Origin: an uncultured Lacticaseibacillus sp.
Lineage (GTDB): Bacteria; Bacillota; Bacilli; Lactobacillales; Lactobacillaceae
Assembly (NCBI GenBank): GCA_934293835.1
Contig: CAKQZO010000041.1
Span: 1 to 11,890 of the forward strand
Direction of reading: 5' to 3'
DNA: 11,890 nucleotides
The notes beneath the pieces were generated by a model, which made no database searches, was not told where the DNA came from, and saw only the letters and a list, made by a program, of their open reading frames with translations. The first letter of the stretch is position 1; each line of letters opens with the position of its first letter. A program made the position numbers and the translations under genes. Positions 1 to 11,890 of this stretch are shown piece after piece.

Positions 1-1697
1 ATCTTGGCATCACGAGTCTGGCCTTGATAAAGCTCAACGAGTGAATAGCTGTCGGCGGTTGCTTCTGTTGGTACGCTGGTAAGACTGAGTTGACCGGGAT
101 CTTCGGTAATTTTTAGGGTTGCATAATTGGACATGTAAGTCAAAGTCTGATTATCAATTGTGGTTGTGAAAGTGAGACGTAAGGCGTAAGGTGTCCCAGC
201 CTTTGTGGCTTTGACTGCTTCTGTGGTGAATTTACCAGTAGGAGAAATATTAATCTTTACGTCATTATCGGTCGGATCTTTCTTTCCGGTTCCCGAGCTA
301 TTTGTGACACCTGATTCACTGGCGCTGAGATTATATTCATTACTTAATGCACCACTTGCAGGGTCATATTTGAAAGCTGTCCATTTATAGCTCCACGTTT
401 GTCCCTTCGGCAGTGAATTTGAAGCATTGATTGAGTGTAACAATCCCGTAGGCTCAATGGCCGACTTCTCTATTTCAATAGCCTTTAGTCCACCGACTGC
501 GATTGCTTTACGTGCAGTCAAGGATGTCGTCGCTGTGGGCATGGAGGCTTCAATGTAGCCGCTTGCTAGTCCTGACTGGTCAACTAATTCGTTGACTGTA
601 TTTTGCTCGGGTGCTGAATATAGTGTGGAAATTCCTGTTGAATGCGCGTCGTCGATCTTGATCTTGCTTCCATCAGAATGCCAACTTACCGTCGTATTAG
701 CCGCAGCAGGGGTGACAGTGGCCTCTGCTGGGTAGGATCCTTGACTTGACATCAAGATTGGAGTTTGCGCGGTAATGTCAAGAGTATCGGGATAAATTGT
801 GTGAGGCGATACAATTACTTTGACCATTGAACTTGCCGAAACAATTGGTGATTGGAGTAATCTGTTCGCGGTTCCGACAAATTGAAAGTAATAGACGCCT
901 TCATCGGCAAATGTGTGCGTTGTAGTGCCGTTGACGTAAGAACGTATGGTCGATGATACAGTTGTAGTAGTGTACGAGTTGGCAGTACCGCTTAATCCAT
1001 CCGCACTTAAGTCGATTTTCCATACTCGAAGAGTGACCGTTCCGTTTTGGAGTAAGTGCGTCCAAAACTCTTTGGCATAGCTATATGGAATCGTCAACGG
1101 AACGTCTTCTTGGGCACCCATTGCTGGGACAGACGGTGTAGGAGGCATGAAACCAGTCTTTGATCCAAAAATCCATGCATTATCACCATCGTCCGTCCGA
1201 CTCACATACCTATTTGCATCACTACCAAAGTTCACATTCCCTAGTTCGAGTGCTTCGCCCAGCTTTGAGTTATTTTGCTGTCCTTCCTTAGAATCCACGA
1301 CATTACTTTCTGATTCAGAGGAGGTTTGTGAGTTACGTTCGGTTTCGGGATTAGTTTGCTTCGATGAAGCTTCTTTTGAAACATCTACTGATTCTTGACT
1401 GGATCGATTCGAGTCTGAAATGCCTGTGCCTGTGTTTGTGACAGGTGTCTCGGTAGTACCGGTGGACGATTCTTCCAAATTCAGATTTTGGTTCTGCTTA
1501 TTCTCGTCTGTAGGCATAGGGGATTCTTGGAGATTATTTGTATTCGAGGCCGATGAGTCATCCTCTTCTGTTGCGGCTTGCTGCACTTGGGTTTCAGTTT
1601 GACTCTCGTCAAGTGCGTGAACTTGGGTAAGCGGGACTGCCGTTGCGCCGACAAGAATCGTTGCAATCAGCGCGTAGTGCCAACACCTCTTAAGCAT
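1..1697 (-). CDS. Large secreted Ser/Thr/Asn-rich surface protein of a WxL cluster (3' end outside window)
   Basis: An open frame of 565 codons starts at ATG 1697 and continues without a stop to the left edge, so the C-terminus is missing. Residues 1-28 form a signal peptide (KR near the start, a hydrophobic core, VHA before the cleavage point). Residues about 30-140 are a low-complexity linker rich in E, S, T, N and Q. The rest looks like beta-rich extracellular domains with many T, S, N and aromatic residues. No WxL motif is visible in the part present; in comparable clusters a large WxL or surface protein occupies this slot and the motif would be C-terminal. The start overlaps the stop of the preceding gene by 8 bp, and the ribosome site GGAGGTGG lies inside that gene's last codons, which implies translational coupling. 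It is probably a surface-displayed adhesin or polymer-binding component; the ligand cannot be predicted. The frame is secure and the function is inferred from context. Confidence 0.85.
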   Translation of the reverse strand, partial: MLKRCWHYALIATILVGATAVPLTQVHALDESQTETQVQQAATEEDDSSASNTNNLQESPMPTDENKQNQNLNLEESSTGTTETPVTNTGTGISDSNRSSQESVDVSKEASSKQTNPETERNSQTSSESESNVVDSKEGQQNNSKLGEALELGNVNFGSDANRYVSRTDDGDNAWIFGSKTGFMPPTPSVPAMGAQEDVPLTIPYSYAKEFWTHLLQNGTVTLRVWKIDLSADGLSGTANSYTTTTVSSTIRSYVNGTTTHTFADEGVYYFQFVGTANRLLQSPIVSASSMVKVIVSPHTIYPDTLDITAQTPILMSSQGSYPAEATVTPAAANTTVSWHSDGSKIKIDDAHSTGISTLYSAPEQNTVNELVDQSGLASGYIEASMPTATTSLTARKAIAVGGLKAIEIEKSAIEPTGLLHSINASNSLPKGQTWSYKWTAFKYDPASGALSNEYNLSASESGVTNSSGTGKKDPTDNDVKINISPTGKFTTEAVKATKAGTPYALRLTFTTTIDNQTLTYMSNYATLKITEDPGQLSLTSVPTEATADSYSLVELYQGQTRDAK

Positions 1698-2031
1698 AGG
1701 CGGCCACCTCCCATGTACGTAGGCGACGACCGAGAACGATGCCACCGTTAACGCCGATGACCAATACCCCTAGCCACATCAGATAGCTGCCAGAGGACCC
1801 GAATCCGGGGATGCGGTCATTTTCGGTCTTGTTTACCGGATAGGTGATAACTGGACCGCTAATGCCATTATCGGGATCGACGTTCGTGTCAGGCAAGTTG
1901 TTGTGCGTGCCAGAAATTGTGAGTGTTAGCTCGCTAGTGGGTGTGTCACTAGCAGCTACTGACTGTGATGGTAAACGAGAAAATGCAATGAAGCCAATAA
2001 AAAGGAATGCCCAGAGCCATTGGTGTTTCAT
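1690..2031 (-). CDS. Small surface protein with C-terminal anchor-like tail (CscD-type position in WxL cluster)
   Basis: A 113-aa protein. It has an N-terminal signal or membrane segment (residues about 5-27), a short beta-rich central part, then a Gly-rich stretch (IPGFGSSG, residues 74-81), a hydrophobic segment (83-100) and the positive cluster RRLR (102-105). This is the layout of a sortase sorting signal, and WxL (csc) clusters typically encode a small LPxTG protein at this place. No canonical LPxTG is present, however. The closest candidate is IPGFG or a site nearby, so the protein may simply be membrane-anchored. The start ATG at 2031 overlaps the stop of the upstream WxL-interacting protein gene (ATGA, 4 bp). 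The last codons (W-E-V-A-A-Y-A) carry the ribosome site for the next gene. It is likely a wall-proximal member of the complex formed by the cluster's products. The gene is well supported; the anchoring mode is uncertain. Confidence 0.82.
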   Translation of the reverse strand: MKHQWLWAFLFIGFIAFSRLPSQSVAASDTPTSELTLTISGTHNNLPDTNVDPDNGISGPVITYPVNKTENDRIPGFGSSGSYLMWLGVLVIGVNGGIVLGRRLRTWEVAAYA

Positions 2032-3032
2032 GAGGCTGCTCCTTTCTTCTTGCGGGTAACGACGATGAGGGCGACTAAGAGTGTGATGGTGACGGCGAGG
2101 AGACCGGCAATCAACCAGATCAGCCAGTTACGGTCAGTCGATTGGTTCGTGTCGGTTTTGAGTTCGCGCACTGTACTTGCTTTGACGACGAAGGTATCCG
2201 TCAGGTGGTAAGTTTTCTTTCCGGAGGTTAATTTCGTCTTGACCGTGTATTTACCTGCCTTTAGGCTGTCTGCTTTGACTGGGATGTTGTGTGCCATGAC
2301 GGCTGCAGGCGCCATTTCAATATCCTCCAGCGTTGTGTTTGCGATGTTGTTCCCGGCAGCATTCACGACCTGTGTTTTCATCGTGATGTGACCAAAGAAG
2401 CGTGCGGCTGCGTTTGTTAACTTGGTGACCACCATGGTGTCCCCGCCAGTTTTGGTTACCTTGGCATCACTGAGTTTCAGCTTGGGCATGATACTCTTTT
2501 GGTCGCTACCATAAAGATGAATTGGCATGGACATGGCAAAGGCGTTTTGAACACCGATCCCTTTTTGTTTCTCGGCGTCCAATGATTTGTGGACATATAG
2601 CGCACCGAGGACGTCACCGGAGATACCATCTGCCGGACTTTTGATCAGGTAATCGACTGTTTTGCTTTGTTTGGCAGGCACTGTCACCGTTTGTTTCTTA
2701 GGTGTCAGCATGTCTGGCAGCTGTGGCTGAAAAATATTGACAGTCGCCATTTTCGGTGAGTAAAGGGTCGTCCCGGTACTTGAGGTTCCGGCCTTTACCG
2801 CCGTAACCTCGTATTTTTGGGTAGTCGCTTGCCGGTTGTTGATGGTTAGTGCAATCTTTTTTTGTTCGTTTGCCTTGAGTTGATATTGGACATACGTCTT
2901 TTCCTCGGAATCAGGGGCGTTAATGCCGATGGTGAAGCCTGCACCAGCTTCACTGTTAGCGGCATGTGTCGGATTGAGTGGGGTACAGAGCAAGGCGACG
3001 AGGGCGCCAAAAAACAAGTAAAGTTTGTGCAT
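2028..3032 (-). CDS. WxL-interacting protein, DUF916/DUF3324, C-terminal membrane anchor (CscA-type)
   Basis: A 334-aa protein matching the WxL-interacting protein family (DUF916 peptidoglycan-binding domain followed by DUF3324 host-binding domain). It has a signal peptide (residues 1-24, THA before the cleavage point), an N-terminal immunoglobulin-like domain opening with GFTIGINAPDSEE, and the conserved middle stretch GDVLGALYVHK. A second beta domain spans roughly residues 170-290, followed by one transmembrane helix (about 304-327) and the cytoplasmic tail RKKKGAAS. In the family this protein sits in the membrane and helps hold WxL proteins at the peptidoglycan surface. I chose ATG 3032 because GAGGTG lies just upstream and a proper signal peptide begins there. 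An upstream in-frame TTG at 3083 would add residues encoded by the hairpin and has no good ribosome site. It lies second in the operon and overlaps the next gene by 4 bp. Confidence 0.93.
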   Translation of the reverse strand: MHKLYLFFGALVALLCTPLNPTHAANSEAGAGFTIGINAPDSEEKTYVQYQLKANEQKKIALTINNRQATTQKYEVTAVKAGTSSTGTTLYSPKMATVNIFQPQLPDMLTPKKQTVTVPAKQSKTVDYLIKSPADGISGDVLGALYVHKSLDAEKQKGIGVQNAFAMSMPIHLYGSDQKSIMPKLKLSDAKVTKTGGDTMVVTKLTNAAARFFGHITMKTQVVNAAGNNIANTTLEDIEMAPAAVMAHNIPVKADSLKAGKYTVKTKLTSGKKTYHLTDTFVVKASTVRELKTDTNQSTDRNWLIWLIAGLLAVTITLLVALIVVTRKKKGAAS

Positions 3033-3050
3033 CGCATTCACCTCATAAAT

Positions 3051-3076
3051 AAAAGGGTGTTGCAAAGGCAACACCC
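3051..3076 (-). terminator. Intergenic hairpin with T-run inside the WxL operon (partial terminator or attenuator)
   Basis: Read on the minus strand, a perfect 9-bp stem (GGGTGTTGC / GCAACACCC, arms 3068-3076 and 3055-3063) with a 4-nt loop is followed by TTTTATTT. It begins about 16 nt after the WxL gene stop and ends just before the ribosome site of the DUF916/DUF3324 gene. The T-run is short, so read-through is expected. It probably sets a high WxL to low anchor ratio or stabilises the upstream mRNA. Confidence 0.7.
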
Positions 3077-3091
3077 TGAGCAACTTAATTT

Positions 3092-3739
3092 TTATAATGA
3101 TCCAGCGCGACCGCTAGAACGGGCAAGGTTCCATGTAACGGTGGAAGAGAAAATGTCACTTGCGTTAACCGTCAATTCCGTCCGTGGTTGATCTAAGTTG
3201 GCAGTCGGCAATTCTGCGGTTTGGATACGCTTGGTTGTACTCAAATCATCTGTAGTTTTTGAAATTTCGACGGGGGTGCCTGTTCCAATCGGATTGTTAG
3301 CAATCGTCAATGTGTCATTTGCTCCAGCATTGTTGAGCTTCAATGTAACACTATCAGCCAATTGCTCATCAGAGGTGTTCTTGAAAGCAGTCATCGATGC
3401 ATTCAAGGTCCAACCCTTGTAGTCGGCAGCGTCGCCGTCATAGCCATCGATCACTTCTAAGTTTTGTTCTTCTTCTTCAAGGTAATTAGTGGTGTCAGGA
3501 CCTTCTGAGCGGGTAAAGCCATTGCTGATATCAATTTGATCTACTGTGCCAAAGTTGTAGTTGGGAACCGCGGTGAGAACCAGGTCAGCTTTATCTGGAT
3601 CGTTTGCTTCAACGTTCAGCTTCAGGTCTGACTGATTGTTATCAACATCGGCTGAAACTGGAGCTGTTCCCATCAGTAATGCACCGCCGGCAGTCGCAAG
3701 GGTGGCTACGAGGGATGTCATCAAGATACGCTTTGTCAT
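3092..3739 (-). CDS. WxL-domain cell-surface protein (CscB-type)
   Basis: A 215-aa secreted protein. Residues 1-30 are a signal peptide ending PVSA. The mature part begins with the family pattern DLVLTAVPNYNFGT (residues 52-65), followed by the first WxL motif GWTLNASMTAF (W110-x-L112). The second motif VTWNL (W203-x-L205) is near the C-terminus. WxL domains bind peptidoglycan non-covalently and display proteins on the outer surface of low-GC Gram-positive bacteria. Between the two motifs is a beta-rich Thr/Asp/Asn region. The start ATG at 3739 is preceded by AGGAGG at a normal distance. It is the first gene of the four-gene operon and is followed by a hairpin that may lower expression of the downstream genes. 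The ten residues after the second WxL (ARSSGRAGSL) are unlike the short, often Pro-containing ends usual in this family. Confidence 0.95.
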   Translation of the reverse strand: MTKRILMTSLVATLATAGGALLMGTAPVSADVDNNQSDLKLNVEANDPDKADLVLTAVPNYNFGTVDQIDISNGFTRSEGPDTTNYLEEEEQNLEVIDGYDGDAADYKGWTLNASMTAFKNTSDEQLADSVTLKLNNAGANDTLTIANNPIGTGTPVEISKTTDDLSTTKRIQTAELPTANLDQPRTELTVNASDIFSSTVTWNLARSSGRAGSL

Positions 3740-3870
3740 AATAGAACCTCCTGTAAGTTGGCTTGTGTCCTTATCAACAATTTAAGCATAGCAAGTTGCT
3801 CGCAGAGGTAGCAGCAATAACGTATGTTGTTAATAAGCTTTTTTGTATGAATATCACGGTTATATTAGGG

Positions 3871-3891
3871 CATATATAGTGGTTACTGAAC
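3871..3891 (+). repeat. Left terminal inverted repeat of the IS
   Basis: Pairs with 5432-5452 in inverted orientation at 17 of 21 positions. The mismatches are at position 2 and at three of the four bases between the conserved outer TATATAGT and inner ACTGAAC blocks. Confidence 0.8.
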
Positions 3892-3899
3892 ATTAGCAA
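3871..3899 (-). promoter_or_regulatory. Candidate outward promoter at the IS left end, reading into the WxL operon
   Basis: On the minus strand TTGCTA (3894-3899) is separated by 17 bp from TATATG (3871-3876), which lies in the terminal inverted repeat. Both hexamers match the consensus at 4 of 6 positions. The direction is toward the WxL gene at 3739. I found no clearly better promoter between 3740 and 3870; a weak alternative is TTAACA followed 17 bp later by TACCTC. This is inference from sequence only. Confidence 0.3.
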
Positions 3900-3936
3900 T
3901 CTTGCGTTTTTTCGCCCCACATCGAGAGCAAAGCGG

Positions 3937-3942
3937 TATAAT
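3937..3942 (+). promoter_or_regulatory. Consensus -10 box for the transposase
   Basis: A perfect TATAAT lies about 72 nt before the chosen transposase start, inside the IS. No good -35 box is found at 16-18 bp upstream (the region reads GCCCCA), so the promoter is probably weak, as is common for transposase genes. Confidence 0.4.
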
Positions 3943-4013
3943 TAATGCACAAGAATTCTGCGATTTCGCCACTTTCTCGTGCATCTCACTTTGCTCAGCG
4001 GAGGAATTTATCC

Positions 4014-5432
4014 ATGGTTTATCGTCATGTGGACGTTCAGCTCTCATTTCAGTCCTTTGATTGCGGGCTAGGCACGTCGCTTAGCCCTGACAACGAATGG
4101 GTTCAACTTGCGTCCATGATTCCTTGGCAGAAACTGGACGAGGCATACCAATCCGTCTTTAATCTGGAGGCTGGTCGGGCTGCTAAGCCATTCCGGATGC
4201 TCTATGGCGCAGAATTGATCAAGCAACGTACCAAATTCTCTGATCAAAAACTCGTTGAAGCAATCCGTGATACCCCCGCCTTTCAATACTTCATGGGCAT
4301 GACGCAGTATGAAGCAAAGCTGCCCTTCAATGCCTCAACGATGACGTACTTTCGCCGTCGAGCGTTCAAAATCTCAGATTTAATTCGTAACATCATCAAC
4401 GACGAGGTGCGAGAAAAGCTGGAAGCAATTGTCCCCAATAGCCACGTCTTGATTGCGGATGCCACGGCGATGCCAATTCAAATTCAGTTCCCGCAAGATG
4501 CATCTTTGCTCAATCGCTCCCGACTTAACCTTGAAGAGATGATTGCGGATATGGCACATGGCGCGGGCATCAAGATTCCGCGGACTTACAAGCGAGAAGC
4601 TAAGGCAAAGTGGACTGACTTTTCTCGCCATCCAGGCCGGCAGGCCAAAACTCGCCGCAAACAAATCAAGGCCCAATTGCAATATGTACGCCGCGACTTG
4701 CGTTACGTTGATGAACTGTTAAGCCAAGCCGGCGAACAATATTTGAGCGACTGGCAGATTGGCCGACTCGCCGTGATTCGCAAAGTCTATGACCAGCAGC
4801 GCTACATGTACGACAACAAGACTCATCGCGTTGAAGACCGGATTGTCAGCTTGAGCCAGTCGTATATTCATCCGATTGTGCGTGGTAAGGCCAAGGCTCG
4901 CGTAGAGTTTGGGGCTAAACTGGACTGTTGTGTCGTCGATGGCATCATTGACCTGATTCGATTTGACTTCAATAGCTTCAACGAAAGTGTCGATCTACCG
5001 GAGATTATTGACCACTACTGGGACACGTATGGGTGTTACCCCGATGAGATTCTGGTGGACACCTTGTATCGAACTCGAGCTAATATCGCGCTGTGCAAGG
5101 AGCTTGGTATCAAGCTGAGCGGGCCAAGGCTTGGCCGCCGACCGAAGAACGTCAGCGCAGCCCAACGCAAGATTGATACGGACGCTGAGAATCGGCGAGG
5201 CGAGATAGAGCGCAAGTTTGCCTTCTTGAAGGGCTCGCTTGGGCTAGATTTGGTAAACACCAAAACGGCTGAATCACTAGTCGTTGAGGTAGACACCGCA
5301 ATCGTGTTGGCGAATTTGATGCTTCTCATGAGGCTGTTTCGTATACCAATTTCCATTGTGGTCACTCGCGGCGGCGAAACCTATCAGATTAACTATAAAG
5401 TTACTTCAGAGTTCGGGAAGCCGGTGGCCTAG
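4014..5432 (+). CDS. IS5/IS1182-superfamily DDE transposase
   Basis: A 472-aa intact transposase that would catalyse cut-and-paste or copy-paste movement of the surrounding IS. The N-terminal part (residues about 25-130) resembles the DUF772/InsH N-terminal DNA-binding domain. The catalytic triad can be placed as D149 (LIADATAMP), D349 (ILVDTLYRT) and E399 (RRGEIERKFAFLK), with a long Arg/Lys-rich insertion between the two aspartates (about 165-300). The family signature around PRLGRRPK (371-378) is present. I chose ATG 4014 because GGAGG lies 9 nt upstream. An in-frame ATG at 3945 is open but begins immediately after the TATAAT box and lacks a ribosome site. No frameshift or internal stop is seen, so the element may still be active. 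The exact IS subgroup is not resolved. Confidence 0.93.
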   Translation: MVYRHVDVQLSFQSFDCGLGTSLSPDNEWVQLASMIPWQKLDEAYQSVFNLEAGRAAKPFRMLYGAELIKQRTKFSDQKLVEAIRDTPAFQYFMGMTQYEAKLPFNASTMTYFRRRAFKISDLIRNIINDEVREKLEAIVPNSHVLIADATAMPIQIQFPQDASLLNRSRLNLEEMIADMAHGAGIKIPRTYKREAKAKWTDFSRHPGRQAKTRRKQIKAQLQYVRRDLRYVDELLSQAGEQYLSDWQIGRLAVIRKVYDQQRYMYDNKTHRVEDRIVSLSQSYIHPIVRGKAKARVEFGAKLDCCVVDGIIDLIRFDFNSFNESVDLPEIIDHYWDTYGCYPDEILVDTLYRTRANIALCKELGIKLSGPRLGRRPKNVSAAQRKIDTDAENRRGEIERKFAFLKGSLGLDLVNTKTAESLVVEVDTAIVLANLMLLMRLFRIPISIVVTRGGETYQINYKVTSEFGKPVA

Positions 5433-5452
5433 TTCAGTGCCGACTATATAGG
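5432..5452 (+). repeat. Right terminal inverted repeat of the IS
   Basis: Inverted copy of 3871-3891 with 17 of 21 positions identical. It overlaps the last base of the transposase stop codon. Confidence 0.8.
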
Positions 5453-5561
5453 ATGAGACTTAACCTTGCAATAATAATTATTTTTGATAAAAATTAAAGT
5501 ATGTATTTTAAAACAAGTGATAGATTTTGTATTATTTAATTTAGTAGCAACGAATTGGTGC
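5453..5561. other. AT-rich intergenic spacer beside the IS
   Basis: About 110 bp of strongly AT-rich sequence with many A and T runs lies between the IS right end and the terminator of the SPFH operon. It contains no credible gene; open frames crossing it are antisense to the SPFH gene. Its composition contrasts with the GC-rich genes on its right. It may be the original distal upstream region of the WxL operon, separated by the IS, or the remnant of an earlier insertion. Confidence 0.5.
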
Positions 5562-5612
5562 AAAATAAGACCTCACGTAGGAATGCCGAACGGCTACGTG
5601 AGGTCTTATTTG
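5562..5612 (-). terminator. Strong rho-independent terminator of the nfeD-SPFH operon
   Basis: A perfect 18-bp stem (arms 5563-5580 and 5594-5611, reading AAATAAGACCTCACGTAG and its complement) has a 13-nt loop. On the minus strand it starts about 20 nt after the SPFH stop codon and ends in TTATTTT. The A/T-rich base of the stem also gives a T-rich tail on the plus strand, so it may work in both directions and insulate the operon from the IS. Confidence 0.9.
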
Positions 5613-5631
5613 GTGATGCACATATTAATAT

Positions 5632-6546
5632 TTATGCTTTCTTGGCGTTCAACACCTGGCCGATGGCCGGGATCTGGCCCAGCGAATCCACGGCGGTGCT
5701 TGGCAAGACGACGGTGTTGCTGTCGCCTTTGGCTAGTTCTTCTAGGGCTTCGACGTTCTTATACTTCAGGTATAAGTCGCCGTTGTTGATGAGCCCGGCG
5801 TTGATCGAGTCAATCTGGTCTTTGACCGCGGCCGCGAACAGGCGCTGCGATTCGGCGCGGCCTTGCGCCTGCAGAATCTGGGTCTGCTTGTTGGCCTCGG
5901 CCTCTAAGATCGCAGCTTGCTTCTCCCCTTCAGCCTTGGCGATGGCGGCTTGCTTGTGGCCTTCTGCTTCCATGATGTTTGCTTCTTTTTCCCGTGATGC
6001 CCGCAGGAGCTTGTTCATCGAGTCTTGGATCGTGGTGTCGACTTGGATCGAGTCGATGTTGACGCGATCGACGTTCAGACCATAGCCGGCGGTGGTTTCG
6101 GCGATCTGGGAGAACAGGGTCTGGTTGATCGTCTCGGTGCCGTTCAAGACATCGTTCAAGTCCATGTTACCGATGATGCCCCGCAGGTTGGCGCGAGTGT
6201 CTTGGACCATCGACAAGACCGAGTCCTTGTTCTGGTAGACATAGGCGTTCACGTCGGTGATGTGATACTTCAAGGTCTCGGAGATGCGCACGACGACGTT
6301 ATCTTTGGTGATGACCTCTTGTTCGTCGACCTTCAGCGGAATCTGCTTCATGTTGACGATCTCGGTGATGCGGTAGATGAGTGGTGGCACCACGTGGAAG
6401 CCTGGATGCAGGGTCTGGACGTATTTACCGAGTCGCTCGACGATGCCGACCTCCCCGGTATGAATGATGGCGACACTCGTGAAGATGATGACGCCGACCA
6501 CCAAGATTAATAAAATGACGACGATGCCGATCACAATTGAAAACAT
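5632..6546 (-). CDS. SPFH/band 7 membrane scaffold protein (QmcA/paraslipin type)
   Basis: A 304-aa protein of the stomatin/prohibitin/flotillin/HflK-C superfamily. It has an N-terminal transmembrane helix (residues about 3-27), then the SPFH domain with family features such as GEVGIVERLGKY, HPGFHVVPP and the ANLRGIIGNMDLNDVL region. A long alanine/glutamate/lysine coiled coil with repeated EAxxKQAAI units (about 190-245) follows, then a C-terminal assembly region ending VLPSTAVDSLGQIP. Members form large membrane-bound oligomeric cages that organise membrane microdomains and influence membrane proteases. The start ATG at 6546 has GAGGAGG just upstream. It lies 12 bp after the short NfeD-like gene; SPFH and NfeD genes are classically adjacent. 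A strong terminator follows. No odd features are seen and the length is normal. Confidence 0.95.
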   Translation of the reverse strand: MFSIVIGIVVILLILVVGVIIFTSVAIIHTGEVGIVERLGKYVQTLHPGFHVVPPLIYRITEIVNMKQIPLKVDEQEVITKDNVVVRISETLKYHITDVNAYVYQNKDSVLSMVQDTRANLRGIIGNMDLNDVLNGTETINQTLFSQIAETTAGYGLNVDRVNIDSIQVDTTIQDSMNKLLRASREKEANIMEAEGHKQAAIAKAEGEKQAAILEAEANKQTQILQAQGRAESQRLFAAAVKDQIDSINAGLINNGDLYLKYKNVEALEELAKGDSNTVVLPSTAVDSLGQIPAIGQVLNAKKA

Positions 6547-6558
6547 ATTTTCTCCTCC

Positions 6559-6750
6559 TCAGTAAACGAGCTGGTTATCTGCGCTAACGACGGTCAATCC
6601 CAACGCGCCGACAGCGACGACGACAACGATGCTTCCGGCCGGGCTGGCATCGGCGACGCGATAATGGTAATGGATCCCATATAATACGATCTCGCCTTTG
6701 GTTGCCTGCGGAAGGGTGAAGCGGGTGTTGATGAGTCGTTCATCTAACAT
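6559..6750 (-). CDS. Minimal NfeD-like OB-fold protein, SPFH partner
   Basis: A 63-aa protein. Its central part reads like the C-terminal OB-fold of NfeD proteins: a glycine-led strand (GEIVLYG), an aromatic/charged strand (IHYHYRVAD), a G-S turn, the valine-rich strand IVVVVAVG, then LTVV near the end. In NfeD proteins this beta barrel follows transmembrane helices and pairs with an SPFH protein; here the helices and any protease domain are absent. The assignment rests on pattern and on the immediate SPFH neighbour 12 bp downstream. The valine-rich strand could instead be read as a single weak membrane segment. I chose ATG 6750 (GAGGAGG 6 nt upstream) over an in-frame TTG two codons earlier, which lies too close to the ribosome site. 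Confidence 0.75.
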   Translation of the reverse strand: MLDERLINTRFTLPQATKGEIVLYGIHYHYRVADASPAGSIVVVVAVGALGLTVVSADNQLVY

Positions 6751-6783
6751 GGCCAACCTCCTCTTGCCTTGCGCCTTAACTTC

Positions 6784-6812
6784 ATCTTAGGCGAAAATCC
6801 AGGCGATAGCAA
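6784..6812 (-). promoter_or_regulatory. Promoter of the nfeD-SPFH operon
   Basis: On the minus strand TTGCTA (6807-6812) and TAAGAT (6784-6789) are exactly 17 bp apart, about 34 bp before the NfeD-like start. Each hexamer matches the sigma-A consensus at 4 of 6 positions. Confidence 0.5.
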
Positions 6813-6861
6813 TTCCAATCGTAACCGTTTTCCCAGCGCTTACCGCAGGTCGTTTGACAAC

Positions 6862-6877
6862 GTGACAATTTTGTCAC
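6862..6877. promoter_or_regulatory. Inverted repeat (possible operator) between divergent promoters
   Basis: GTGACAA and TTGTCAC are perfect 7-bp arms separated by TT. A related half-site, TTGACAA, lies just to the left (6854-6860). The repeat is immediately upstream of the expected -35 position of the GH25-like gene and within about 60 bp of the nfeD-SPFH promoter. This suggests a dimeric regulator, but I cannot name it. Confidence 0.45.
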
Positions 6878-6898
6878 CTTTTCAGGTCTGAGATGCGC

Positions 6899-6904
6899 TA
6901 CAAT
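6899..6904 (+). promoter_or_regulatory. -10 box for the GH25-like gene
   Basis: TACAAT lies 24 bp before the start codon. The hexamer 17 bp upstream is ACCTTT, a poor -35, and it abuts the 6862-6877 inverted repeat. This fits an activator-dependent promoter. Confidence 0.45.
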
Positions 6905-6928
6905 ATGGGAATGTTGGAGGTGAGTGCT

Positions 6929-7639
6929 ATGCGAGGCAAACGCCCGATCTATGCAGATACATATGCGCGCCGCCACCGCGCGCTTATTGTGAGCATTCTG
7001 GTGGTGGCTTTGGTGGTGATCGCCGGTGGCGCCTGGTGGTGGCGCCACAAGAACCCGCGGCCCAGCACCAGTCGCTATCCGTTCATGGGCGTGCGCGTCG
7101 ATCAGTCACTCGGGGCGCTCAACGCTTCGACCTTGCAGGCTGGAGGCGCGACGTTCGTCTATCTCAAAGCGACGCAAGGGGCGAGCTTCGTCGACGATAA
7201 CTTCGCCACAAATTACGCGCGCGCCGTCGGGCTGACCGTCGGCGTCTACCATTATTTTAGCTTCGACTCGACCCCGCAGGCTCAGGCCACCAACTTCATT
7301 GACCATGTGCAAGGCGATATCGGGACGCTCCCGGTTGGTATCTACCTAACCGCTTACACCACGCCGCCAAAACGATTGGCGCAGAAGGTGAAGACGTTCG
7401 TGGCCTTGGTGCAGCAGCATTATGCCTGTTCGGTGGTGTTGATGGGGACGCCCAAGATGTTAGCGCGGGTGCAGGCGGTAGCGCCTGCGAGCCCGCGGTG
7501 GGTGATTAGCGCCAAGCGGCCAAGCAACGGGCAGTTCTGGGAGTATGCCGACGCGAAGCTGCCGCACAACGCGGCAGAGCAGACGTATCCAAGCGCCGTT
7601 TTCACAGGCACAGAGGCGGCCTTCAAGCAGCTTCAGTAG
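6929..7639 (+). CDS. Membrane-anchored GH25 lysozyme-like protein, probably catalytically inactive
   Basis: A 236-aa protein with a basic N-terminal tail, one transmembrane helix (residues about 18-38) and an extracellular GH25-type (Chalaropsis lysozyme) fold. Recognisable family elements are GVRVDQSLG (54-62), FVYLKATQGASFVDDNF (76-92), GLTVGVYHYF (101-110), QAQATNFI (117-124) and the late WEYAD (204-208). GH25 muramidases cleave peptidoglycan using Asp/Glu residues in a first GxDvS motif and a DxE motif after LPP. Here the first motif has Arg where Asp is expected, and the second region reads LPVGIYLTAY with Tyr and Thr in place of Asp and Glu. It may therefore bind rather than cut the wall. 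ATG 6929 has GGAGGTG 6 nt upstream; an in-frame ATG at 6893 lies upstream of the -10 box and is rejected. It is divergent from the nfeD-SPFH operon. Confidence 0.85.
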   Translation: MRGKRPIYADTYARRHRALIVSILVVALVVIAGGAWWWRHKNPRPSTSRYPFMGVRVDQSLGALNASTLQAGGATFVYLKATQGASFVDDNFATNYARAVGLTVGVYHYFSFDSTPQAQATNFIDHVQGDIGTLPVGIYLTAYTTPPKRLAQKVKTFVALVQQHYACSVVLMGTPKMLARVQAVAPASPRWVISAKRPSNGQFWEYADAKLPHNAAEQTYPSAVFTGTEAAFKQLQ

Positions 7640-7706
7640 CGACCTTACAAGAGTGTTCGCGTATTAACTGCGCTGGTTTGGCATAATATGAGGTGAGGTG
7701 ATTCAG

Positions 7707-8063
7707 ATGAGGCGATTTTTGATAGGGCTTGTGATGCTTGCAGTGATCGTGTTCGGCGGCTTGAAGGTGTTCACCGCGTTCAACTACGGCGGCACGGCGT
7801 ATTACACCAAGATCACGACGGTGGGCACCAAGATCGCACCGCAAGACGACAAGGGGAATGTCTATATCGACTATCGCTACGACCAGGCGGCCTATACGGC
7901 TGATGGGGCGCACAAGAAGCTGGTGTTCAATGCCAACAAGTCGCGACCGTTGCGGCTCGGCGCTTATCTCAAGTTGACCGTCAATCCGAAAAAAGGGGTG
8001 ACGAGCTGGGAAGCTGTCGGGCCCAAGGCGGTGCCACAGCCGGCGAAGCGCCAGCTCGATTGA
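7707..8063 (+). CDS. YxeA-family (DUF1093) exported protein
   Basis: A 118-aa protein. It has an N-terminal signal or anchor segment (residues about 3-22), then the family patterns YYTKI near residue 32, a Y-x-Y strand followed by YDQAAYTADGAHKKLVF, and LRLGAYLKL, ending in a W-E-x-V strand. YxeA proteins are small extracytoplasmic proteins of Gram-positive bacteria with an OB-like fold; their role is not established. I chose ATG 7707 with GAGGTG 6 nt before it; an in-frame GTG at 7698 falls within the ribosome site. It lies 67 bp after the GH25-like gene. A CATAAT box at 7683-7688 could be its own -10, but the -35 is weak, so co-transcription with the GH25-like gene is possible. A terminator-like hairpin follows. 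Confidence 0.88.
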   Translation: MRRFLIGLVMLAVIVFGGLKVFTAFNYGGTAYYTKITTVGTKIAPQDDKGNVYIDYRYDQAAYTADGAHKKLVFNANKSRPLRLGAYLKLTVNPKKGVTSWEAVGPKAVPQPAKRQLD

Positions 8064-8142: not shown

Positions 8143-8151
8143 TGCTAAGAT
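8143..8151 (+). promoter_or_regulatory. Extended -10 promoter for the DsrE-family gene
   Basis: TGCTAAGAT contains the TGn extension followed by TAAGAT, about 30 bp before the start codon. No clear -35 box is visible, which is usual for extended -10 promoters. Confidence 0.45.
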
Positions 8152-8181: not shown

Positions 8182-8511
8182 ATGAACGTGATTTTTCACA
8201 TCGACGATCTGGCCAAATGGCCGACACTGCTCAGTAACGTCCAGCATTTTCACGAGTGGTTACTTGCACAAAGCGACAACTCGACGATGGAAGTGTTGAT
8301 CAACGGCGAGGCGGTGCAGGCCGCGGTCACCGATTCCGAGGTAGACCTCAGCCTGCTGGCGCGAACCGTTAATATCGTGGTGTGTGCCAACTCGCTGCGC
8401 CAACGCGATATCACCAAGGCCCAGCTGCAAGACGGACTGACCACCGTTCCTTCAGGCGTGGTCGAACTCGCACAGCGCCAGCACCATGGTTTTGCTTATA
8501 TCAAGCCGTAG
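8182..8511 (+). CDS. DsrE/DsrF-like family protein (COG1416 type)
   Basis: A 109-aa cytoplasmic protein with the layout of the small DsrE-like alpha/beta family. It opens with the strand VIFHIDDLAKWPTLLSNVQH, has a middle MEVLINGEAV strand, then the conserved cysteine stretch IVVCANSL (Cys about residue 68) and the family ending VPSGVVELAQRQHHGFAYIKP. DsrE-type proteins are linked to sulfur transfer or form small oligomers; members of this branch are mostly uncharacterised, so the reaction is unknown. The start ATG has the purine run AGGGGG about 9 nt upstream. It appears to be a single-gene transcript with an extended -10 promoter. No signal peptide or membrane segment is present and the length is usual for the family. 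Confidence 0.88.
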   Translation: MNVIFHIDDLAKWPTLLSNVQHFHEWLLAQSDNSTMEVLINGEAVQAAVTDSEVDLSLLARTVNIVVCANSLRQRDITKAQLQDGLTTVPSGVVELAQRQHHGFAYIKP

Positions 8512-8523
8512 CGAGGCAGATTA

Positions 8524-8553
8524 TTAGGTGATCGAAGGCGACGGTGTTATCCT
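8524..8553 (+). promoter_or_regulatory. Weak candidate promoter of the structured RNA
   Basis: TATCCT (8548-8553) with TTAGGT (8524-8529) 18 bp upstream. Both are imperfect. The predicted start, about 7 nt after the -10, falls at 8560-8561, directly where the RNA's closing helix begins, which is the main support. Confidence 0.3.
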
Positions 8554-8559
8554 TAGGTT

Positions 8560-8816
8560 AGGACATGGCGTTAGTCATGCCTGTACGGCTCTCTCGTCTA
8601 GTAGGCGGCCAGGATTGGCTGGCCTTAGACAGCGGCACCCAGGGGGCCAAATCATCGTACCGGCGGGAATCGCCTTGGCGGTTCCCGTACATAGGTAAGC
8701 AGTCAGTCCATCATGTTGGGAACAGCTTCTTGTTAAGTGATGTTAACCGACATGTCGATCCAGTCAATTGAACAACCACTCACACGCCTTCCAGCCTGTC
8801 GCTGGGAGGTTTTTTT
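8560..8816 (+). ncRNA. Candidate structured non-coding RNA of about 255 nt, family unidentified
   Basis: The region has no credible protein gene but folds extensively on paper. A closing helix joins GACATG (8562-8567) plus GTTA (8570-8573) to TAAC (8744-8747) plus CATGTC (8751-8756). A second helix joins CCTGTACGG (8580-8588) to CCGTAC (8685-8690) and AGG (8693-8695). Inside it is a hairpin with nested stems GTCTA/TAGAC (8596-8600, 8626-8630) and GGCCAG/CTGGCC (8607-8612, 8619-8624). A near-perfect hairpin CGGGAATCGCC/GGCGGTTCCCG lies at 8664-8687. A further stem CATCA/TGATG pairs the region around 8709 with 8738. The transcript ends in a textbook terminator. I could not match it to tmRNA, RNase P, SRP RNA or a known riboswitch. 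No gene follows on the same strand, which argues for a standalone RNA. Base pairing was worked out by eye. Confidence 0.6.
8787..8816 (+). terminator. Rho-independent terminator ending the structured RNA
   Basis: A 9-bp stem CCTTCCAGC/GCTGGGAGG (8787-8795 and 8801-8809, one G-T pair) with a 5-nt loop is followed by seven T residues (8810-8816). It is more than 270 bp after the DsrE-family stop, so it more likely ends a separate transcript. Confidence 0.9.
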
Positions 8817-8819
8817 ACT

Positions 8820-8859
8820 GCTGTGCTTATCGGGGTACAGCTGTGCTTATCGGGGTACA
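8820..8859. repeat. Perfect tandem duplication, two 20-bp units
   Basis: GCTGTGCTTATCGGGGTACA occurs twice head to tail (8820-8839 and 8840-8859). GGGATACA at 8861-8868 may be a decayed third fragment. It starts 3 bp after the terminator T-run. Confidence 0.95.
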
Positions 8860-8882
8860 AGGGATACAGACGCTGGTCCGGT

Positions 8883-8931
8883 CTCCGTCCGGTCACGCTT
8901 CTTGAAATACGGATTTGAAGACCAGACGGAG
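8883..8931 (-). repeat. 12-bp inverted repeat (possible hairpin) downstream of tRNA-Arg
   Basis: CTCCGTCCGGTC (8883-8894) and GACCAGACGGAG (8920-8931) pair at 11 of 12 positions; the one exception is a C-A mismatch on the plus strand but a U-G pair on the minus strand. The loop is 25 nt. No T-run follows, so it is not a normal terminator. Confidence 0.6.
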
Positions 8932-8953
8932 TGAATTCCCCAACCTTTCCCCA

Positions 8954-8981
8954 AAACAAAAACGCCTATTTCTAGACGTTT
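8954..8981 (-). terminator. Terminator of tRNA-Arg
   Basis: On the minus strand AAACGTCTA, a GAAA loop and TAGGCGTTT (8960-8981) form a 9-bp stem with one U-G pair, followed by TTGTTTT. It lies 34 nt after the tRNA 3' end. The U-G pair is favourable only on the minus strand, which supports this orientation. Confidence 0.75.
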
Positions 8982-9015
8982 GTTGTTCCTTGCTTTTCCC
9001 TAAATCGGTTAAAAA

Positions 9016-9089
9016 TGCAACGGGAGAGACTCGAACTCTCTACCTATGGTTTAGGAAACCATTGCTCTATCCAGGTGAGCTACTATCGC
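9016..9089 (-). tRNA. tRNA-Arg (anticodon CCU, reads AGG)
   Basis: A complete 74-nt cloverleaf. The acceptor stem is GCGATAG/CCGTTGC with discriminator A. The D-arm is GCTC/GAGC, the anticodon arm ATGGT-TTCCTAA-ACCAT with anticodon CCT, the variable loop 5 nt, and the T-arm GAGAG-TTCGAGT-CTCTC. The acceptor stem has an A6-C67 mismatch and two G-T pairs. CCA is not encoded (TTTTT follows) and must be added by the CCA-adding enzyme. Confidence 0.95.
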
Positions 9090-9099
9090 AGACTAACCT

Positions 9100-11849: not shown

Positions 11850-11890
11850 AGTTGTTCAGTCGACTTGAGTGCTACGTGATATCCTCTAGT

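Follow-up and report, generated by a model that had tools for sequence, protein, structure and literature searches.

Between a dsrE-like gene and a tRNA-Arg gene of an uncultured Lacticaseibacillus sp. lies a stretch of 257 bases that closes with a terminator, and the question is whether this is an RNA gene in its own right. We refer to the whole DNA analyzed, 11,890 nt in length, as the window. An initial annotation had described the stretch as a highly structured standalone RNA with its own terminator, for which a divergent 6S-like RNA or a new lactobacillus RNA family were options. The features of the locus are as follows.

8143..8151, + strand: extended -10-like site TGCTAAGAT (pattern TGNTANNNT), probable dsrE promoter
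8182..8511, + strand: dsrE-like gene, 109 aa (Pfam DsrE PF02635, E 1.8e-6)
8545..8553, + strand: extended -10-like site TGTTATCCT, one of three TGNTATNNT sites on the + strand, with a predicted transcript start at ~8560
8560..8816, + strand: the studied stretch, non-coding, possibly transcribed and lineage-specific as far as searched (from folding and the lack of an Rfam match)
8816..8855, strand not applicable: two 20-nt repeats, head-to-tail (sequence comparison)
8876..8928, strand not applicable: repeat block resembling a block at locus L043, possible integrase arm sites
8934..8991, - strand: block downstream of tRNA-Arg including a terminator-like hairpin, common to tRNA-Arg genes of other genus genomes
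9015..9090, - strand: tRNA-Arg(CCT) (ARAGORN; Rfam coordinates 9016-9089)

The stretch begins 48 nt 3' of dsrE and lies on the same strand. As first described, no same-strand gene follows directly downstream, but the dsrE gene upstream had been passed over. A dsrE match at E <= 1e-8 is present in 25 of 30 genus genomes, the best being 83% identical, and the best loci belong to three Lacticaseibacillus species and to a MAG labeled 'Lactobacillus sp.'. Among relative proteins the nearest seen is one 89% identical to the DUF3284 protein of the window, named Lacticaseibacillus sp. GG6-2 by a source. To the left of dsrE in the window there is a block running from a 304-aa ORF (5632-6546) to a DUF1093 gene. 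In the loci of two relatives (L001 and L002) the same block lies beyond an oxidoreductase gene and on the opposite strand, a rearrangement adjoining the locus; the segments compared were window 5725-8017 with L001 10477-12327 and L002 10029-12327.

Folding of the stretch gives four main elements, all on the + strand.

8587..8648, + strand: branched hairpin, 8587-8594/8641-8648 around 8596-8630 (pair probabilities 0.53-0.89)
8663..8688, + strand: 11-bp hairpin with a loop of 4, 8663-8673/8678-8688 (pair probabilities 0.82-1.0)
8712..8754, + strand: imperfect hairpin, 8712-8727/8736-8754 (pair probabilities 0.56-0.83)
8786..8816, + strand: intrinsic terminator, 10-bp stem 8786-8795/8801-8810, loop of 5 and T run (pair probabilities 0.91-1.0)

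The strong 11-bp hairpin, a nested hairpin (8607-8611/8616-8620, pair probabilities 0.71-0.88) and the terminator with T residues after its stem had all been proposed initially, and all three are borne out by the calculated pairing. Long-range helices, likewise proposed initially, are present in the minimum-energy fold at 8561-8584/8691-8709, but in the ensemble every one of their pairs lies below 0.5, with 8580-8584/8691-8695 at 0.30-0.37, and they compete with a local hairpin 8564-8569/8574-8579 (pair probabilities 0.52-0.58). About 30 bases before the terminator had been taken to be unpaired; this holds for 8772-8785, whereas 8755-8771 form a small hairpin in the minimum-energy fold.

The full stretch folds with z = -2.76, and 1 of 200 shuffles was equally good. 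The opposite strand gives z = -2.66, and the stretch without its terminator z = -1.80. When the window was tiled into 234 segments of 200 nt on both strands, 15 (6.4%) had z < -2.5 and none of these overlaps the stretch; the + strand tiles that do overlap it have z values of 0.0, -1.6, -1.1, -2.4 and -1.3. Of 1000 shuffled versions of the stretch, 27 contain an 11-bp hairpin, but such hairpins are near chance across the window, with 5 entries (3 sites) where 20 shuffles average 2.5 entries. Between 8100 and 9150 the terminator scan finds two terminator-like sites, where shuffles average 1.0. The folding of the stretch is modest, and unremarkable within the window. The term highly structured was overstated in view of the tiling, the ensemble and the window-wide hairpin count. 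Hairpin and terminator are predicted to be good locally, which is no demonstration of a single designed global fold.

The view that the stretch contains no credible gene stands. None of the ten six-frame peptides of at least 30 aa in 8500-8960 matched Pfam up to E 1, and one matched a PHROG, at E 0.42. A search by 5-residue words with the 68-aa ORF found none among 5.8 billion proteins with three words in common. A protein remnant was rejected on these three results. With Rfam at the gathering score only the tRNA was found in the window, and up to E 10 in 8500-9020 there was only a 14-bit JPX_1 match at 8949-8984, outside the stretch. The covariance search proposed with the initial annotation was thus negative for the stretch even at E <= 10, in agreement with its failure to assign a family. 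RNase P, tmRNA and SRP RNA were rejected, since Rfam was negative for them on the window and ARAGORN was also negative for tmRNA.

In this genus the 6S model of Rfam has little power, with 0 of 30 genomes above its cut-off, and a 6S RNA could therefore go overlooked. At E <= 0.001 RF00013 matched 8 of the 30 genomes, all below the model cut-off, with the other 22 unmatched, and the model seems too weak for this genus. The 6S-like RNAs at L069-L074 run from position 1501 to ~1690, full-length yet scoring below the cut-off. Six of the eight matches were aligned, with a mean column identity of 79%. As a control, these RNAs recover each other by BLAST with E 2e-67 to 7e-4; this was run on six of the eight, in a local database of small size with E values scaled to a single genome, and with a tool different from that of the genus, family and order searches. 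The full-length sub-threshold matches lie away from dsrE wherever both were located, on different contigs in G358, G003 and G202 and ~45 kb apart on one contig in G183; the other four of the eight genomes have no dsrE match. A profile of the six sequences had two matches in the window, at 11859-11882 (E 0.16) and at 860-882 (E 1.2), and did not match the stretch. The 6S covariance model has no match in 8500-9020 up to E 10, and the minimum-energy fold of the stretch is branched, not a rod. With covariance model, genus profile and branched fold all against it, 6S identity was rejected: the 6S-like RNA of the genus has another sequence, elsewhere. That the stretch is a divergent form of any known housekeeping RNA such as 6S is extremely improbable.

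Sequence searches gave no convincing relative of the stretch. With 8512-9015 as query, none of the 30 genus genomes gave a match inside 8512-8830; ten matched elsewhere, all in 8934-8991 and one also in 8876-8928, and recovery of the 8934-8991 flank in 10 of 30 provides a control for the same DNA search. At E <= 0.05, BLAST of 8512-8830 matched 15 genomes among the 397 of the family, where ~20 would be expected by chance (best E 0.0014), and at E <= 0.001 it matched none of the 395 order genomes, with at most two candidates per genome scored among the matches listed. Weak family matches clustered at 8709-8757 first looked like a conserved motif, which was set aside as the total match count is that of chance. 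Four near genomes gave chance matches only, with a best E of 0.43. A covariance model of 8584-8712, built from one sequence, matched a single genome among the 30 of the genus (E 0.024), where ~0.7 would be expected by chance, and 0 of 397 family genomes at E <= 0.01 under stricter filters. Run on the window and seven related loci (L001, L002, L046, L047 and three others), it found only the window itself, besides an E 6 match in L048.

An RNA conserved in the manner of 6S-like RNAs would probably have shown up in the genus. A fast-evolving RNA, or one found in very close species, could have been missed with one genome sampled per species, and with the nearest dsrE 83% identical a very near relative probably lay outside the comparison. 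The blanks in these searches are weak evidence because no searched genome is a known carrier and, in the family and order BLAST searches, no more than two candidates per genome were scored among the matches listed. With no convincing relative in the genomes searched, a new lactobacillus RNA family finds no support here by sequence or structure.

We compared the same locus in relatives. The dsrE and tRNA-Arg(CCT) neighborhood is kept in L044/L001, L045/L002, L046 and L047 and not in L048; the tRNA scan took in these five of the 25 dsrE loci. In the four relatives that keep it (L001, L002, L046 and L047) the stretch is missing from between dsrE and tRNA-Arg(CCT). Measured from the dsrE stop, the first terminator-like hairpin begins at 3 nt in L046, at 5 nt in L047 and at 31 nt in L050, compared with 274 nt in the window and 294 nt in L063. 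With loops of up to 8, the terminator scan finds no hairpin within 450 nt of dsrE in 21 of 25 loci, including the closest, L044 and L045. Longer-looped hairpins can be seen by eye within ~60 nt of dsrE in L045 and L049.

The locus bears traces resembling those of prophages. In L001 the gap between dsrE and the tRNA contains a frame of 94 aa that matches Phage_integrase (E 9.8e-7), a C-terminal integrase remnant. The 8876-8928 block is 80% identical over 53-54 columns to the L043 site in genome G307 (E 3.4e-4 for that genome), which follows tRNA-Arg(CCT) and adjoins a GH25 lysin-type gene. A 33-nt piece ending ACAAGGGATACAG (within 8816-8872) is 79% alike at the L043 site, inverted relative to the adjoining repeat block. 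Of the 397 family genomes one has the repeat GTCCGGTCNNCGTCCGGTC, at the L043 site. Six viral contigs of 61-68% G+C carry it too, and these have only the repeat in common with the window apart from one 18-nt match (E 0.94, L076). The presence of element-like sequence at the 3' end of the tRNA in the window is modestly supported by this resemblance to one site in one genome. The 8934-8991 block adjoins tRNA-Arg in 10 of 11 loci, with anticodon CCG in nine and CCT in one. At the eleventh, L039, no tRNA was found; there the block belongs to one of two copies of a 97-nt repeat. This repeat occurs twice and identically in G160 (L039 and L042), ~37.6 kb apart, and includes the 3' end of tRNA-Arg and the tRNA terminator. 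Such an arrangement would be expected of the attL and attR sites of a prophage, and the tRNA-linked copy adjoins tRNA-Arg and a GH25 gene.

Integrase remnant, lysin genes and repeats at these loci make the tRNA-Arg genes look like prophage attachment hotspots. In Latilactobacillus sakei, prophages are on record at tRNA-Arg (PMC9641780), and Lactobacillus rhamnosus phage BH1 is described as using a different tRNA gene, tRNA-Ser (PMC6950654). A search of the window for another copy of the tRNA 3' end (12-18 bases, 2-4 mismatches) found none, and the other end of a scar is therefore not seen. Phage and plasmid records have no match to 8512-9015 at E <= 0.01, and an origin argued from similarity of the stretch to such records was rejected. 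At E <= 10, 8816-9014 matched 30 phage records, the best 15 of the 30 covering 16-19% of the query with E 2-8. Window positions 1-8000 have no match among plasmids in near mode, and an exact 20-mer of the hairpin is found in zero viral contigs.

The terminator at 8786-8816 implies that some transcript ends at ~8816, which may start at dsrE or at 8560. The pattern TGNTANNNT is rare, with 10 sites on the + strand of the whole window. The 8545 site has a poor -35 or none when judged by eye; as a promoter of an RNA starting at ~8560 it is suggestive, a post hoc find. A consensus scan gave zero + strand promoters between dsrE and 8626, and so none just before 8560, and one weak + strand site inside the stretch at 8626-8655. 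It found none before dsrE either, and a scan that misses dsrE too is insensitive.

The reading that we consider marginally probable is that the stretch is the 3' tail of the dsrE mRNA, lying in a prophage-attachment scar; its transcription, the promoters and the origin of the extra DNA we infer from the sequence. The stretch would be lineage-specific non-coding DNA in that scar between dsrE and tRNA-Arg(CCT). Transcription from the dsrE promoter would cross it as far as the 8786-8816 terminator, so that the dsrE mRNA would carry a structured 3' tail of unusual length (~300 nt). Alternatively the product may be a 257-nt small RNA of the 3'-UTR type, started at the 8545 site or cut from the dsrE tail. 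We prefer the 3'-tail reading because the stretch is missing from the kept dsrE-tRNA-Arg(CCT) locus in four relatives, because the dsrE terminator-like hairpin is 3-31 nt away in L046, L047 and L050 compared with 274 nt here, and because the consensus scan is without a + strand promoter between dsrE and 8626. The scar is part of the best explanation because of the integrase remnant in L001, the G307 block, the G160 repeats and the Latilactobacillus sakei tRNA-Arg site. Against the 3'-tail reading, the 8545 site has the position expected of a separate promoter that would drive an RNA beginning at 8560, an early hairpin after dsrE is found in only 3 of 25 loci (loop up to 8), and a weak + strand site exists at 8626-8655 in a promoter scan that is insensitive.

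A rival reading is a standalone, lineage-specific regulatory small RNA of ~257 nt, perhaps prophage-borne, running from the 8545 promoter to the 8816 terminator and base pairing through weakly paired segments such as 8755-8785. TGTTATCCT at 8545 and the terminator bracket the stretch, the 11-bp hairpin is infrequent in shuffles of the stretch and the full-length z is low, and an absence of relatives is common among small RNAs here (PMC8220740). Yet the 8545 site has no good -35, the folding is unexceptional for the window with such hairpins near chance, the ensemble has no settled long-range fold, and no convincing relative was found; we regard such an RNA as possible but tentative. That it would be a young regulatory RNA gene borne by the prophage scar, with the 8545 promoter, a 257-nt structured RNA and the 8816 terminator, restricted to this lineage and wedged between dsrE and the former terminator position, is doubtful. 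The prophage-like traces, the lack of relatives and of a recognizable frame would also fit a decayed mobile-element or gene remnant, not usefully transcribed, whose hairpins are leftovers. This is quite unlikely, as no parent gene is visible in the six-frame peptides (no Pfam match, one PHROG at E 0.42), phage and plasmid records are unmatched, and the terminator is intact. Most likely the stretch is ordinary.

If the stretch is a long 3' tail of dsrE it would be an example of insertions beside tRNA genes displacing terminators. Should it prove a real small RNA, it would be one more lineage-specific RNA in a genus rich in them, with mild extra interest from its origin at a prophage attachment site. 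Either outcome would be of little surprise to a specialist.

6S RNA (RF00013) is likewise a stand-alone RNA of similar size, but the stretch matches neither Rfam nor the genus profile and its fold is branched. Lactobacillus casei BL23 belongs to the same genus as the window by current naming. Its reported small RNA candidates include, among others, 86 intergenic and 107 UTR-derived. Of all candidates, 76-81 have homologues in L. casei ATCC 393 and L. rhamnosus GG, and 9 have them in the other family members tested; the same source adds that conventional RNA-seq over-assigns 3'-UTR-derived small RNAs (PMC8220740). Unlike the stretch, which is known from sequence alone, those RNAs were seen by sequencing and some by Northern blot; the 3'-UTR-derived and orphan intergenic RNAs described there resemble it in being short, mostly without an Rfam match and poorly conserved beyond close relatives (PMC8220740). 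Compared with the tRNA-Arg prophage attachment sites of Lactobacillaceae, as described in PMC9641780, the window is without an integrase, a lysin gene in the gap or a second att copy, but the target is of the same kind, and in its relatives tRNA-Arg is adjoined by repeats and by genes, or gene remnants, for integrase or lysin.
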